Both the position numbers and the translations under genes were made by a program. Source: a virus. Taken from it: 64,000 nucleotides of DNA. The number at the start of each line of letters is the position of its first letter. Positions within the stretch are counted from its first letter, which is position 1. The DNA is taken from the IMG/VR virus record IMGVR_UViG_3300009085_000002, positions 1 through 64,000 of that record; one strand, 5' to 3'. Positions 3,514 through 15,107 of the stretch are shown here, piece by piece. Below the pieces are notes generated by a model. The model did not search any database. It was not told the DNA's origin and saw only the letters and a program-made list of their open reading frames with translations.

Positions 3514-3724
3514 AATATAATTATTTTAAAGTTAATAGTCAATTAAAAATGTCTAGGTTACTAACCTTTGACCAGGTTACTGTGAGTAGAAGCTTTTTAC
3601 TACAAGTTTAACACCATGTAGGTTTAACACCAAGGGTTTAAGACTTATAATCCTTCTACATTCCTAGACTATTTACTGAGACTTCCTTTACTCAGTAAAC
3701 CACAGTGGAAGTATTTTAGAATAG
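3514..3724. repeat. Intergenic region with direct repeats and competing hairpins
   Basis: No gene is seen in these 211 bases. They hold two copies of GTTTAACACCA (3606-3616, 3622-3632; 16-base period) and two AGGTTACT copies near 3551 and 3572. A 9-bp hairpin TTTACTGAG/CTCAGTAAA (3672-3680, 3691-3699) competes with an overlapping ACTTCC/GGAAGT pairing. On the minus strand this would be the leader of the 3280 gene or the trailer of the 3725 gene. Confidence 0.45.
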
Positions 3725-3958
3725 TTAATTTTTATAGTCATATAATTCTTCATATAGCTCTTTAGCCAACTTCTCAAGAACTATTCTTTTATTTTCTCCT
3801 TGTAATCCTGTTTTTTCATAGTATAAATTACTAGGTAATCTATAAAAAACAGTAATAATTGGATTATGATCTGGTCCAGTTTTACTAACTACACCATTTT
3901 CTAATGCAGCTCCAAATTCTTTTTGAACTGTTTCTGCTAATTTAACTCTATAGTCCAT
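3725..3958 (-). CDS. Hypothetical protein (77 aa)
   Basis: The ATG at 3958 (MDYRVKLAETVQ) is chosen over an in-frame TTG at 3985. The protein is small and soluble, with a helix at the start (KLAETVQKEFGAALE), a short beta-like centre and a helical C-terminus (LEKLAKELYEELYDY). No family is recognised. It stands alone on the minus strand between two non-coding stretches. Confidence 0.55.
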   Translation of the reverse strand: MDYRVKLAETVQKEFGAALENGVVSKTGPDHNPIITVFYRLPSNLYYEKTGLQGENKRIVLEKLAKELYEELYDYKN

Positions 3959-5911: not shown

Positions 5912-5943
5912 TTTGCATAATATATTAATTTTTATTATATTTG
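5912..5943 (+). promoter_or_regulatory. Bacteroidota-type promoter of the rightward genes
   Basis: TTTG (5912-5915), 20 bases, TATATTTG (5936-5943): a full match to the consensus. Start of transcription should be near 5949, 12 bases before ATG 5961. This rules out the TTG start at 5913 as the true start of the first gene. Confidence 0.8.
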
Positions 5944-9919: not shown

Positions 9920-9964
9920 TTATTAAATGGTTAAATATAAAGTTCTTTGATTTATAAAAATAAA

Positions 9965-9996
9965 TTTGCTTTTTGAGTTATTTTTTATTACTTTTG
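9965..9996 (+). promoter_or_regulatory. Bacteroidota-type promoter of the structured RNA
   Basis: TTTG (9965-9968), 20 bases, TACTTTTG (9989-9996): a full consensus match. Start of transcription should be near 10002. No gene starts within 420 bases, so it drives an RNA first. Confidence 0.7.
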
Positions 9997-10001
9997 TTAA
10001 G

Positions 10002-10348
10002 TGATCTTGCTACCCCTCAGATTTTAGAGTAGTAACCTAAAAGGAAAGGGAGAAGTAGATTTGTAAGGATAAGAACTCCAAAAGAGTACACTTCATTGAC
10101 AAGTAAGATACTATCCTGAGATAATCTATAGTCACAAAAAGTTCTTAAATATAATAGTTAGGTAAATGGGGATTCAAGCTTAAGGGTAAAGGAGCTTCCC
10201 TAATTGGACTTCACATCCAATTTTCAGTGATGATAATTTGATTAGTTAATGACTATGAGATAACGTACGGCCTAATTAGAAGTTTTAAGAATGCTTATTA
10301 GAACAAGAGTAGTAAAAGTCTCTAGGGGTTTACTTATGTTCTTTTTTT
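10002..10348 (+). ncRNA. Candidate structured non-coding RNA (~350 nt)
   Basis: This gene-free stretch has its own promoter and ends in a stem plus T7 run. It is visibly richer in G and C than its surroundings and folds by eye into: a hairpin CTAC/GTAG (10010-10013, 10029-10032); a three-way junction GGATA/TATCC (10067-10071, 10112-10116) holding ACTC/GAGT and ACTT/AAGT hairpins; a domain closed by ATCTATAGTCA with TGACTATGAGAT (10124-10134, 10250-10261; one bulged G), holding a GGG-AAGCT/AGCTT-CCC hairpin and a 7-bp AATTGGA/TCCAATT hairpin (10202-10208, 10216-10222); and the terminator. No frame longer than a few codons is seen. No known RNA class was recognised. Confidence 0.65.
10301..10348 (+). 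terminator. Intrinsic terminator of the structured RNA
   Basis: GAACA (10301-10305) pairs with TGTTC (10337-10341) and GTAAA (10312-10316) with TTTAC (10329-10333), with an internal loop, followed directly by seven T. A further 7-bp hairpin ATTAGGT/ACCTAAT (10349-10355, 10371-10377) lies just downstream, before the 10427 gene. Confidence 0.55.
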
Positions 10349-10426
10349 ATTAGGTATTAATTAGTTAAGAACCTAATTATTAGAATATAATAGTAAAGTT
10401 GCGTTACATATATTCAGATAACAACT

Positions 10427-10807
10427 ATGGCAGAAAATAAAAAATTGAAAACTATTGACATAGTTGCTAAAGATCATAAAGAGGTTTTTGACAACTATGT
10501 AAGATTTATTGTAAAACCAATATATAATTTAACTGAGAGAGAAGCTGAAGTGGCTTCTCTTTTATTATACATGTTTAATGTAGAAATTAGTAAAGGTGAA
10601 AGTATAAAGGCAGCAATGTTATTTGTATTTCATCCTGATTCTAAATTAAAGATTATAGAAGAATTAAAAATAACAGAATATACTTTAAATAATATTTTTT
10701 CTACTTTAAGAAAGAAGAAATTTATAAAAGAAAAAGAAATTGAGAATATTAATTTAATTTATGATCCTTCTAAATACAAAGGAATAACATTATATATAAA
10801 TGAATAA
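10427..10807 (+). CDS. Small winged-helix-like protein
   Basis: A 126-residue protein with an all-helical middle part. LTEREAEVASLLLYMFN and LKIIEELKITEYTLNNIFSTLRKKKFIKEKE look like a helix-turn-helix followed by a wing, so it may bind DNA. It is the first gene after the structured RNA and lies upstream of the terminase. Position suggests a role in packaging or in regulation of the late genes, but that is inference. It overlaps the next start by eight bases. Confidence 0.5.
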   Translation: MAENKKLKTIDIVAKDHKEVFDNYVRFIVKPIYNLTEREAEVASLLLYMFNVEISKGESIKAAMLFVFHPDSKLKIIEELKITEYTLNNIFSTLRKKKFIKEKEIENINLIYDPSKYKGITLYINE

Positions 10808-11738: not shown

Positions 11739-14700
11739 ATGAGCTTATTTATAAGAATAAATAATAGAAAAAACTTTTTACTTAAAGAAATTCCTTCTTT
11801 ACATCCAGATAGTATGGCTTATATAGAATATTGGGGAGAACAAACTAAAAGGTGTATAGAAGGTTTTTGGGGAATAGATGATAATAATATACCTTGTAAT
11901 ATAGGAGAAGTTGGTTGGGATAAAGATATAAATTCTAGTAGTTGGAGATTTATACCACCTGTTCTTTATTTTTATATTAATTTTGGAACTATTTTACATA
12001 AACCAGAAGATGCTCCTAAATCTGAGCCACAACAAAAGATGAAACCATTATTAAGAGATTTTGATTGGGAATTTCATTATAATTGGATAGAAGCTAGAGG
12101 ATTCTCTGGATTTGAAGAAGATGAAGAATATACTTGTTTAGAAGATGTATTAGAATGGAAGTTAGGAAGATTAACTAAGAAAAATATACATAAGTCTGCT
12201 TTTAATAAAGATCACAAATTAAAGGAGTATGTACCTACCAGAGAATATATAAGAAGATTGTTTAATAAACCTATGGGTACGCCTATATATCAAAATGAAC
12301 CTAAGAGCTTCTTTGTATTATCTTCACGTGGTGGTGGTAAGTGCCTAAAAAACAGTGAATTAGTATATTATAAAGATAGGGTTGGAACTATTGGAGAAGT
12401 TAAAGCAGGAGATGAAATATATGGATCTGATGGTAAATTAACTGTAGTTACTAATGTATACCCTCAGCCAAAAAAAGTATTATATAAACTACAATTAAGA
12501 GATGGTAGAGAAATTATTTGTTGCGAGGAACACATATGGAAAGTTTTTGATAAATCTAATAGAAAGTTTTTAAATTTAAAATTAAAAGATTTTAAAGATT
12601 CCTATTATAATATAAGAATAGATTCTAAGCATAGAGAGAAATATAAAGAAGCTAAATATGTAAAGGAATTTAAATATGCTATACCAAATAGTATAGGCGT
12701 AGACTTTTCTGAAAAAATACTTCCTATAGACCCATATACTTTAGGTTTATTATTAGGAGATGGGTGTATAACTAATAATTATTATTCTATTAAATTTACT
12801 ACAGGAGATAGTCAACTAGTAAATTGGTTAAAAAATAAGTATCCTGATAAAATATCTATTTATAATAAAGGAAAAAATTATGAATTAACTTTTAGAGGTT
12901 CATTTCTAAATAAAGAATTAACTTGTTTAAACTTATTAGGTACTTACTCTAATACTAAATTTATTCCTAATATATACTTATATAGTAGTAGAGAACAAAG
13001 ATTAGAGTTATTAAGAGGATTAATGGATACAGATGGATTTGCAGATTCTAGACATACGGAATATTATACAACTTCTAGTAAGTTAGCAGATAATGTAGTA
13101 TTTTTGTTACAAAGTTTAGGCATACAATGTAAAAAATCTATTAAAGAGAGTAGTTATAAAGATAAGAATAATAATAAAGTAAAATGTAAGGATTGTTATA
13201 GAATTAGCCTATACACAGATAAAAAAATATTTAATTTAGATAGAAAACAGTCTAAAGTTCAGAAATTATCTAAGACTTCTAAATCTAAATTAGAAAAATC
13301 TTTTATAACTAGTATTGAATATTATGGAGAAGATTATTCTACTTGTATAAAAGTAAGTAATAAGGATCATTTATTCTTAACAACAGGATTTACTATTACA
13401 CATAATTCTTATGATGGTGCAGCTTGTGATGCACATGAACTCTTATTTGATGGATTGAAAAAGTATATACCAGGAACTATTTCTAAAACTGTTGTTAGTA
13501 TTGTAGTAGGTGCATCTATTGGAGATAAATCTTCTGAAACTATAGAAAAAATAGTAACAATGTTTGAAAATTTACCTGGTGGTTGGAAAGAAAATACTAT
13601 AGAGGCTAGACCAAGCCCATTTGCTAAGATAATGGTAGGTTCTACTAAACCTAATAATGGAGATAGTCCTTGGAGAAATGAAATACCTGTTAATGTTGGT
13701 GGTATTGATAAAGTTATGGGTTCTGGATGTAAATTAAAACATGTTATTTTTACTAGTAATAATCCTCAAGCTGCTGCTGGAGGTAGAAATACTATTATAC
13801 ATGTAGAAGAAGTTGGTTTATGCCATAATTTATTAGATGTACATGGATCTAATGAAGCAAATCAATTTATAGACCATTATATAGGAAGTTCTTTATATAC
13901 TGGCACTGGAGGTAATGTTGATAAAATTATGGAATCAGAGAAGATATTTAGAAATCCTAAAGATTATAGAATGCTTGCATTTGATGATATATGGGAGAAT
14001 ATGGGTAGTATAGGATGGTTTGTTCCTGCAACACATACTAATAATAAATTCAAAGATGAGAATGGAAATACTGATGAAGAAGAAGCTATGGCTTTCTATG
14101 AGAAAAGAAGAGAAGATAAAAGAAAGTCTGTAGACTCTAAAGCATTAGAATATGAAATGATGAATTATCCTCTTATTCCTTCAGAAATGTTCTTATCTAC
14201 CAAATCAAATAGATTTCCTTTAAATATACTTAGATTAAGAAAGTCTGAATTAATATCTACCGAATTATCTAAAGGTTTAGGTATGACTGGATTTTTTGAA
14301 GAAGAAGAGGGAGAATCTGTATGGAATCCTACTCTAGATGTAGTTCCAATTAGAGAATTTCCATTATCTAGAACTTCTAATAGTACAGGTTGTATTGAAA
14401 TGTGGGAATTACCTAAGAAAGATAATGATGACGAAATAATTAGAGGAAGATATATTGCAGCTTTAGACCCTGTAGATGATGATGAAGAAAATACTATAGG
14501 GACTAAAAGATCTCTACAATCTTTTTGGATATTAGATCTATGGACAGATAGATTAGTTTTAGAATATACTGGTAGAACTGAGTTTGCAGAAGATTTTTAT
14601 TCACAGTGTTTATTAGCTACTTTATTTTATAAAGCTACAATACTATATGAGAATCAAAAGAAAGGATTCTTTACTTTTATGGATAAAATGAATTATCTTA

Positions 14701-15107
14701 GTTTATTAGAAGATAATCCAAAACAACTACAAAGTACTGAAGATTTAGGTATAGGTAAAATTAAAAATACTAAAAAGGGAGCTTATTTAACAGGACATTT
14801 AAAAAATTGGGGTTTAGAAATGTTAAATGAGTATTTAAGAAAAACTGCATACGGAGAAGAATCTAAGACAAATGCAACTAAATTAAAATCTTTAGGGCTA
14901 GTTTTAGAATTATTATCTTATGGACCTAAAGTAAATGTAGATAGAATTTCCTCATTAATAATACTAATGATATATAGGAATTTAAAAGAGAAAGAAGTTT
15001 TAGAAAGTAAAACTAGAAAAGTAAAAGCTTATGTAAAAGATCCTTTTATAGAAAGAAATTATGGTAAATTTGAAATATTTGATAAAAAGAATATATGGAC
15101 AATATGA
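11739..15107 (+). CDS. terL: Terminase large subunit, split by an intein
   Basis: A 1122-residue precursor. Removing the intein (residues 202-556) leaves a 767-residue packaging motor. The ATPase has Walker A SSRGGGK at residues 195-201, with Ser557 completing GGGK-S after splicing. A probable Walker B is IIHVEEV near residues 686-692. The nuclease has the motif YIAALDPVDDDE (Asp910), followed by ILYENQKKG (a second acidic residue near 970), matching the RNase H-like fold of TerL. It pumps DNA into the procapsid and cuts it. The gene lies between the candidate small terminase and the portal, and overlaps the portal start by 13 bases. The product can work only if the intein splices out. Confidence 0.9.
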   Translation: MSLFIRINNRKNFLLKEIPSLHPDSMAYIEYWGEQTKRCIEGFWGIDDNNIPCNIGEVGWDKDINSSSWRFIPPVLYFYINFGTILHKPEDAPKSEPQQKMKPLLRDFDWEFHYNWIEARGFSGFEEDEEYTCLEDVLEWKLGRLTKKNIHKSAFNKDHKLKEYVPTREYIRRLFNKPMGTPIYQNEPKSFFVLSSRGGGKCLKNSELVYYKDRVGTIGEVKAGDEIYGSDGKLTVVTNVYPQPKKVLYKLQLRDGREIICCEEHIWKVFDKSNRKFLNLKLKDFKDSYYNIRIDSKHREKYKEAKYVKEFKYAIPNSIGVDFSEKILPIDPYTLGLLLGDGCITNNYYSIKFTTGDSQLVNWLKNKYPDKISIYNKGKNYELTFRGSFLNKELTCLNLLGTYSNTKFIPNIYLYSSREQRLELLRGLMDTDGFADSRHTEYYTTSSKLADNVVFLLQSLGIQCKKSIKESSYKDKNNNKVKCKDCYRISLYTDKKIFNLDRKQSKVQKLSKTSKSKLEKSFITSIEYYGEDYSTCIKVSNKDHLFLTTGFTITHNSYDGAACDAHELLFDGLKKYIPGTISKTVVSIVVGASIGDKSSETIEKIVTMFENLPGGWKENTIEARPSPFAKIMVGSTKPNNGDSPWRNEIPVNVGGIDKVMGSGCKLKHVIFTSNNPQAAAGGRNTIIHVEEVGLCHNLLDVHGSNEANQFIDHYIGSSLYTGTGGNVDKIMESEKIFRNPKDYRMLAFDDIWENMGSIGWFVPATHTNNKFKDENGNTDEEEAMAFYEKRREDKRKSVDSKALEYEMMNYPLIPSEMFLSTKSNRFPLNILRLRKSELISTELSKGLGMTGFFEEEEGESVWNPTLDVVPIREFPLSRTSNSTGCIEMWELPKKDNDDEIIRGRYIAALDPVDDDEENTIGTKRSLQSFWILDLWTDRLVLEYTGRTEFAEDFYSQCLLATLFYKATILYENQKKGFFTFMDKMNYLSLLEDNPKQLQSTEDLGIGKIKNTKKGAYLTGHLKNWGLEMLNEYLRKTAYGEESKTNATKLKSLGLVLELLSYGPKVNVDRISSLIILMIYRNLKEKEVLESKTRKVKAYVKDPFIERNYGKFEIFDKKNIWTI
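12342..13406 (+). mobile_element. Intein with LAGLIDADG endonuclease in TerL
   Basis: Residues 202-556 (355 aa) of the terminase precursor. The insert begins with Cys202 (CLKNSELVYY), ends TITHN-Ser, and removing it joins GGGK to SYDGAACD. The start Cys, the final His-Asn and the following Ser are the residues needed for protein splicing. An N-terminal Hint block has GEVKAGDEIYGSDGK and a conserved EHIWKVFD region. Two LAGLIDADG motifs (LGLLLGDGCI near residue 336, LLRGLMDTDGFA near 425) form the endonuclease. The C-terminal block HLFLTTGFTITHN completes splicing. Its placement inside the Walker A motif means that alleles lacking it present the homing site. Confidence 0.92.

Follow-up and report, generated by a model that had tools for sequence, protein, structure and literature searches.

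GOLLD and ROOL are structured RNAs of phages and prophages with unknown function, often found near tRNA islands; ROOL is ~660 nt long, many GOLLD RNAs exceed 800 nt, and both assemble into homo-oligomeric nanocages (PMC12286853). The DNA analyzed here (the window) covers positions 1-64000 in a virus record of 88,965 bp, and the candidate RNA that it carries (the window RNA) resembles GOLLD and ROOL in being a phage-borne structured RNA from a phage whose relatives have tRNAs in the same region, but it did not match their Rfam models and no common sequence motif was seen. Likeness to 6S RNA, tmRNA, RNase P RNA, group I introns and tRNAs is confined to general size range or location, and cmscan did not match the window RNA to any of them. 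Antitermination RNAs of the HK022 put type open a phage operon, with the promoter immediately before them. The window RNA shares this arrangement, whereas the related copies described below precede terminators or genes of many kinds. Like the phi29 pRNA, it lies near the packaging genes; unlike the pRNA, it has no Rfam match, and the family to which we compare it has no general link to the terminase.

The gene-free gap upstream of the terminase operon

The phage is crAss-like, and its nearest kin, judged by terminase and portal, are Crassvirales of the Steigviridae/Asinivirinae (phi14:2, DAC15, cr111_1). No ORF-free gap in the whole record is larger than that at 9920-10426. The initial annotation described positions 10002-10348 as a structured RNA gene that contains no protein gene and has its own promoter and terminator. 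The lack of a gene was borne out: stop codons are present in all six frames, which rules out a coding or recoded gene. The G+C content is 0.329, whereas the genome averages 0.26 and the other gaps 0.25, and just 3% of equal-sized genome tiles reach such a value. The features of the locus are listed below; P1, hp1 to hp4 and R1 refer to the RNA family described in the next section.

9965-9996, + strand: Bacteroidota-type promoter, -33 element TTTG at 9965-9968 and -7 element TACTTTTG at 9989-9996
10002-10348, + strand: candidate noncoding RNA of ~347 nt, ORF-free, promoter on the 5' side and terminator on the 3' side
10003-10061, + strand: 5' domain with P1-like hairpin, CUAC (10010-10013) opposite GUAG (10055-10058)
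10034-10040 and 10052-10055, + strand: motifs AACCTAA and GAAG of the 5' domain, similar by eye to the family P1 loop (no score with R1)
10067-10073, + strand: GGATAAG, by eye in place of (UU)GGAUCAG of the family members
10075-10087, + strand: predicted hp1, ACTC-caaaa-GAGT, at the position of the covarying family helix hp1
10088-10175, + strand: ~88 nt between hp1 and hp2, counterpart missing in most relatives
10176-10197, + strand: predicted hp2, AAGCT-taaGGGTAAAGG-AGCTT (family loop GGGUAAAAGG)
10202-10222, + strand: predicted hp3, AATTGGA-cttcaca-TCCAATT
10227-10236, + strand: GTGATGATAA, a pattern in common with family member L156 (family: GGUGAAGAUAA directly after hp3)
10300-10348, + strand: terminator hairpin AGAACA..TGTTCT followed by T7, loop CTAGGGG at 10322-10328 (compare family hp4 loop CUAGGGAG)
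10427-10807, + strand: gene of 126 aa, homologue of the crAss 'VpsT-like' regulator (so annotated in cr111_1), matched in 30+ related loci

The terminase operon begins with the gene at 10427, and the RNA stretch lies ~1.4 kb upstream of the terminase. The terminase large subunit itself (TerL, 11739-15107, 1122 aa) contains at about residues 193-557 a probable intein with a LAGLIDADG endonuclease (Pfam LAGLIDADG_3, 1e-8; Hom_end, 7e-6; weak Intein_splicing). The probable intein is inserted at the enzyme's GGGK Walker A motif and is apparently missing from phi14:2. The whole record has no tRNA genes, though DAC15, cr111_1 and the related locus L092 have tRNA islands near the locus.

Both proposed transcription signals, the promoter TTTG-N20-TACTTTTG and the stem with T7 (-9.4 kcal/mol, z -0.8), were found in place, thus at the level of sequence the window RNA is flanked by a promoter and a terminator. 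The pattern TTTGN18-21TANNTTTG matches five times in the window, against a mean of 2.2 expected, and all five matches have + orientation and lie in or at gaps preceding + strand genes. Because of this distribution the late region of the phage appears to use host-type promoters. Matches to TTTG-N-TANNTTTG are at 5912, 9965, 17476, 24741 and 36390, all on the + strand. In the relative L013 a near-identical promoter (3625-3656) occupies the place equivalent to 9965-9996; there, within 3625-3756, the promoter is followed by a tRNA-like element (GGGCAG..GTAGGTTCGACCCCTACCTCTGCCCCA) that was rejected by ARAGORN with default settings. The sequence AGAGTAGTAA occurs twice inside the window RNA, at 10026-10035 in the 5' domain and at 10306-10315 in the terminator stem.

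The ordered set of helices that had been proposed was recovered in part. The predicted fold of the whole RNA is not unusual (z -0.25, 35/100 shuffles), whereas the 5' domain at 10002-10066 is unusually stable (z -2.12, 4/200 shuffles), and the hairpins at 10176-10197 and 10202-10222 were consistently predicted. A three-way junction suggested for 10067-10116 is at chance level (-4.1 kcal/mol, z +0.31). The long-range stem 10124-10134/10250-10261 is absent from the predicted fold, where it would be pseudoknotted with the helix that closes 10145-10290.

That no known RNA class had been recognized agrees with the cmscan search against Rfam 15, in which nothing reached the gathering threshold with the window RNA (GOLLD, ROOL, tmRNA, RNase P and phi29 pRNA included) and matches at E values up to 10 were chance-level hits of the snoRNA type only. 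No match was obtained by blastn against 50,697 phage records, and direct blastn and nhmmer comparisons with phages and the related loci gave nothing significant. A piece of L198 similar to the window RNA was dropped because it lies inside an ORF. ARAGORN was negative for tRNA, tmRNA and intron-bearing tRNA in the window and gave low-quality folds only when relaxed. The 14-mer seed GAGATAACGTACGG and the pattern GGGTAAANG...GTGANGATAA were also followed in viral contigs; apart from the known member L156, the matches were due to chance.

Pairing with the anti-Shine-Dalgarno tail of 16S rRNA was considered because this tail is normally sequestered in Bacteroidota (PMC9976891). The pairing proved not to be specific, the RNAs giving a z of -0.67 as compared to -0.61 with control tails. 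Genes of the phage mostly lack Shine-Dalgarno motifs (4/84 have one). The string AACC..GGAA..UUGGAUCA presumably resembles the 3' end of 16S rRNA, a likeness that we do not claim; a search of three MAGs did not turn up the 16S end.

An RNA family at the equivalent site in related phages

Related loci were gathered by portal and terminase alignments, and even the closest relative is distant, with a terminase identity of ~52% across a part of the protein. Comparison of the gaps immediately 5' of the homologues of the 10427 gene revealed a conserved noncoding block. An HMM made from three copies found more copies, and the next profile, built from nine, matched 14 places at E values below 1e-20, a number that includes duplicate contigs and training sequences. 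Family matches found by nhmmer include L154, L169, L160, L165, L206, L172, L156, L157, L168 and L261, among others. The family RNA is within ~0.5 kb upstream of the VpsT-like gene in L154, L160, L169, L157, L206 and L176. L261, found by a DNA pattern scan and not part of the training set of the nine-copy profile, has large ORFs where the terminase and the portal would lie. None of the family copies tested had an Rfam match.

The members share a common anatomy. A -7 element such as TATCTTTG is followed by the RNA, which starts with a 5' module consisting of the hairpin ACCUAAnAAAG..GGAnG and then UUGGAUCAG. This first hairpin, P1, has a 4-bp helix, and its conserved loop is either AACCUAAnAAAAGnnGGAnG or the short AACUACG. 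After P1 the order is UUGGAUCAG, hp1, GAACAACAA, hp2 with the loop GGGUAAAAGG, hp3, GGUGAAGA and hp4 with the loop CUAGGGAGAG, followed in several members by a terminator. Two covariance models were made, in both cases with the window RNA excluded: R1 covers P1 and hp1, whereas R2 covers hp2 with its GGGUAAAAGG loop, hp3 and the GGUGAAGA tail. R1 additionally recovered L176/L179 and L193, which were absent from its training.

The initial annotation had named a lack of covariation in homologues as an observation that would speak against a structured RNA. At the level of the family we found the opposite: across the alignment of 58 copies, pairing in the P1 helix is 100%, and changes on both sides were seen in 4/4 of its pairs. 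Covariation was seen in the helices P1 and hp1. For the whole structure in the 58 copies the covariation value is 0.675, compared to 0.157 for shuffled and at most 0.133 for slid alignments, with the reservation that an alignment fitted to the model is somewhat favourable. These results show a structured RNA family, absent from Rfam, at the same site in related crAss-like phages. Terminators are visible 3' of the members L157, L156, L206 and L213, and a TATCTTTG element precedes the VpsT-like gene in L154, L160 and L169; both observations fit a separate transcript.

The module is not confined to this site. A pattern scan found the P1 module, among the matches listed, in at least ~50 viral contigs, where the copies usually stand directly after the promoter-like TATATTTG and are followed by other sequence on the 3' side. 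In two cases tested the downstream gene was NinG. In AT-rich phages (L500, L453, L466, L477, L437, L482 and others) a long pyrimidine tract (CTTTTTCTTTTCTTTC...) comes after the module, and an AGGGAG/AGGAGG motif often stands before the tract. In Flavobacteriales the module was first found, with a second pattern, in three genomes, one of them (G035) with three copies, and 4/42 genomes of the order matched it. In L550 and L568 the Flavobacteriales copies are followed by a gene whose 150-170-aa product has a weak HTH match. The MAG contigs L542, L548, L550, L567 and L568 from this order carry the module in ORF-poor regions of several hundred nucleotides, and small ORFs after the module of L567 resemble, by eye, mobile-element genes. 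Because at least ~50 viral contigs and Flavobacteriales genomes carry copies, the UUGGAUCAG-module family is widespread in the mobile DNA of Bacteroidota. No paper on it was found; the literature covered left out most subscription papers and preprints, and the family may be listed elsewhere.

This distribution bears on the idea of a packaging role, which had been raised from position. An RNA comparable to the phi29 pRNA would fit the distance of ~1.4 kb to the terminase, but the module also occurs 5' of NinG and in Flavobacteriales genomes; moreover, the window RNA has no Rfam match, and R1 found no copy in phi14:2, DAC15, cr108_1 and cr111_1. We regard a packaging RNA as highly improbable; the window RNA may still be a regulator, as was suggested together with it.

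Relationship of the window RNA to the family

The window RNA sits just 5' of the VpsT-like gene and the terminase operon, as do the members in the crAss-like branch of the family, and it agrees with the family in site, promoter, terminator and size. Its parts follow each other in a family-like order: the AACCTAA hairpin, GGATAAG, hp1 with ACTC/GAGT, hp2, whose loop contains GGGTAAAGG, hp3, GTGATGATAA and the terminal hairpin with CTAGGGG. To compare these parts with chance, a flexible descriptor consisting of hp2, hp3 and the tail was trained on ten members, with the window RNA left out. Its top score in the 88,965-bp record is at 10181 on the + strand, with motif registers that were chosen after the window had been seen, and in 8.68 Mb scanned over both strands two non-member places score higher. 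The score of the window was reached by 145/398,524 dinucleotide shuffles (p 3.6e-4), a value that is optimistic as the registers were fixed post hoc. Since the registers were set after reading the window, we take this value as support that falls short of proof.

Other methods did not recognize the window RNA. With R1 the best matches in the record were elsewhere, and 10034-10083 received 2.8 bits, which means that the 5' P1 module was not recognized. R2 gave no match at the site (4.9 bits at 10188-10238), the nhmmer family profile did not detect the RNA, and in whole-length Smith-Waterman comparisons with the members it scored no better than many other tiles of the same genome. For covariation in the helices of the window copy itself, no sufficiently close relative was found in the phage records, related loci and viral contigs. 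These negative results would be expected if the site carried an unrelated intergenic RNA or decayed sequence where the relatives keep an RNA gene, and the site does hold other items in relatives, a tRNA-like element in L013 and tRNAs in DAC15. However, the failure of R1 and R2 is not decisive, because L160 and L165 have also lost the canonical P1 loop and module and L213, member-like by eye, is missed by both models. The motif order, the descriptor result, and the intact promoter and terminator likewise argue against an unrelated sequence, which we consider unlikely. The window RNA is probably a diverged copy of the family that related crAss-like phages carry at this site; its descent from the UUGGAUCAG-module family seems quite probable, and it has not been filed as a member.

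Possible modes of action

The recurrent unit of the family is a promoter, the module, a variable 3' domain and often a terminator. The downstream gene varies among the members (VpsT-like, NinG, HTH protein, unknown). Taking into account that the module is found before NinG and in several copies in a Flavobacteriales genome, these observations argue for an action that is independent of the neighbouring gene, and the recurrent unit with its varied neighbours and bacterial copies fits a trans-acting RNA. We favour, with some confidence, a stand-alone, trans-acting noncoding RNA gene that is probably a diverged copy of the non-Rfam family.

The independence of the RNA gene, as proposed in the initial annotation, agrees with the promoter, the terminator, the lack of coding capacity and the presence of a family of the same layout at the site, but the RNA could also be solely the leader of the 10427 gene. 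In that case the terminase operon together with the 10427 gene would be driven from the 9965 promoter, with the hairpin-T7 at 10300-10348 as an attenuator and its read-through set by the structured leader. This is the main rival because no canonical Bacteroidota promoter was found in the window between 10349 and the start of the gene at 10427. The position of the family at operon heads points in the same direction, as do two members: a gene begins ~30 nt past hp4 in L261, an ATG comes no more than a few tens of bases further on in L168, and no terminator is visible. A cis-acting leader is, however, hard to reconcile with downstream genes that differ between members, with the strong terminator of several members, and with the separate -7-type element before the VpsT-like gene in several of them. 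On balance a leader seems rather unlikely.

If the window RNA is a stand-alone trans-acting RNA, a host-type RNA polymerase would start at the TTTG/TACTTTTG promoter and stop at the hairpin-T7. The RNA, presumably transcribed in this way, would then act in trans on a factor bound to it. The 5' hairpin ACCUAAnAAAG..GGAnG with UUGGAUCAG and the purine-rich loops GGGUAAAAGG and CUAGGGAG may be the binding sites, and the factor to which these conserved single-stranded and loop motifs would be presented may be a host or a phage component. More specifically, the window RNA may be one diverged representative of a large non-Rfam class of Bacteroidota phages and mobile elements, in which a covarying 5' hairpin with UUGGAUCAG, grafted onto many 3' domains, would act in trans during infection, with a component of the host as its target; we put this forward tentatively, at slightly less than an even chance.

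Structured phage RNAs of unknown function are a known kind, exemplified by GOLLD and ROOL, but the UUGGAUCAG-module family itself is absent from Rfam 15, and this widespread element of Bacteroidota mobile DNA is nameless in the resources searched. For the crAss-like phages, whose regulation is little known, the family provides a concrete noncoding gene for experiments, and the copies in bacterial genomes may permit tests in the bacterium alone.
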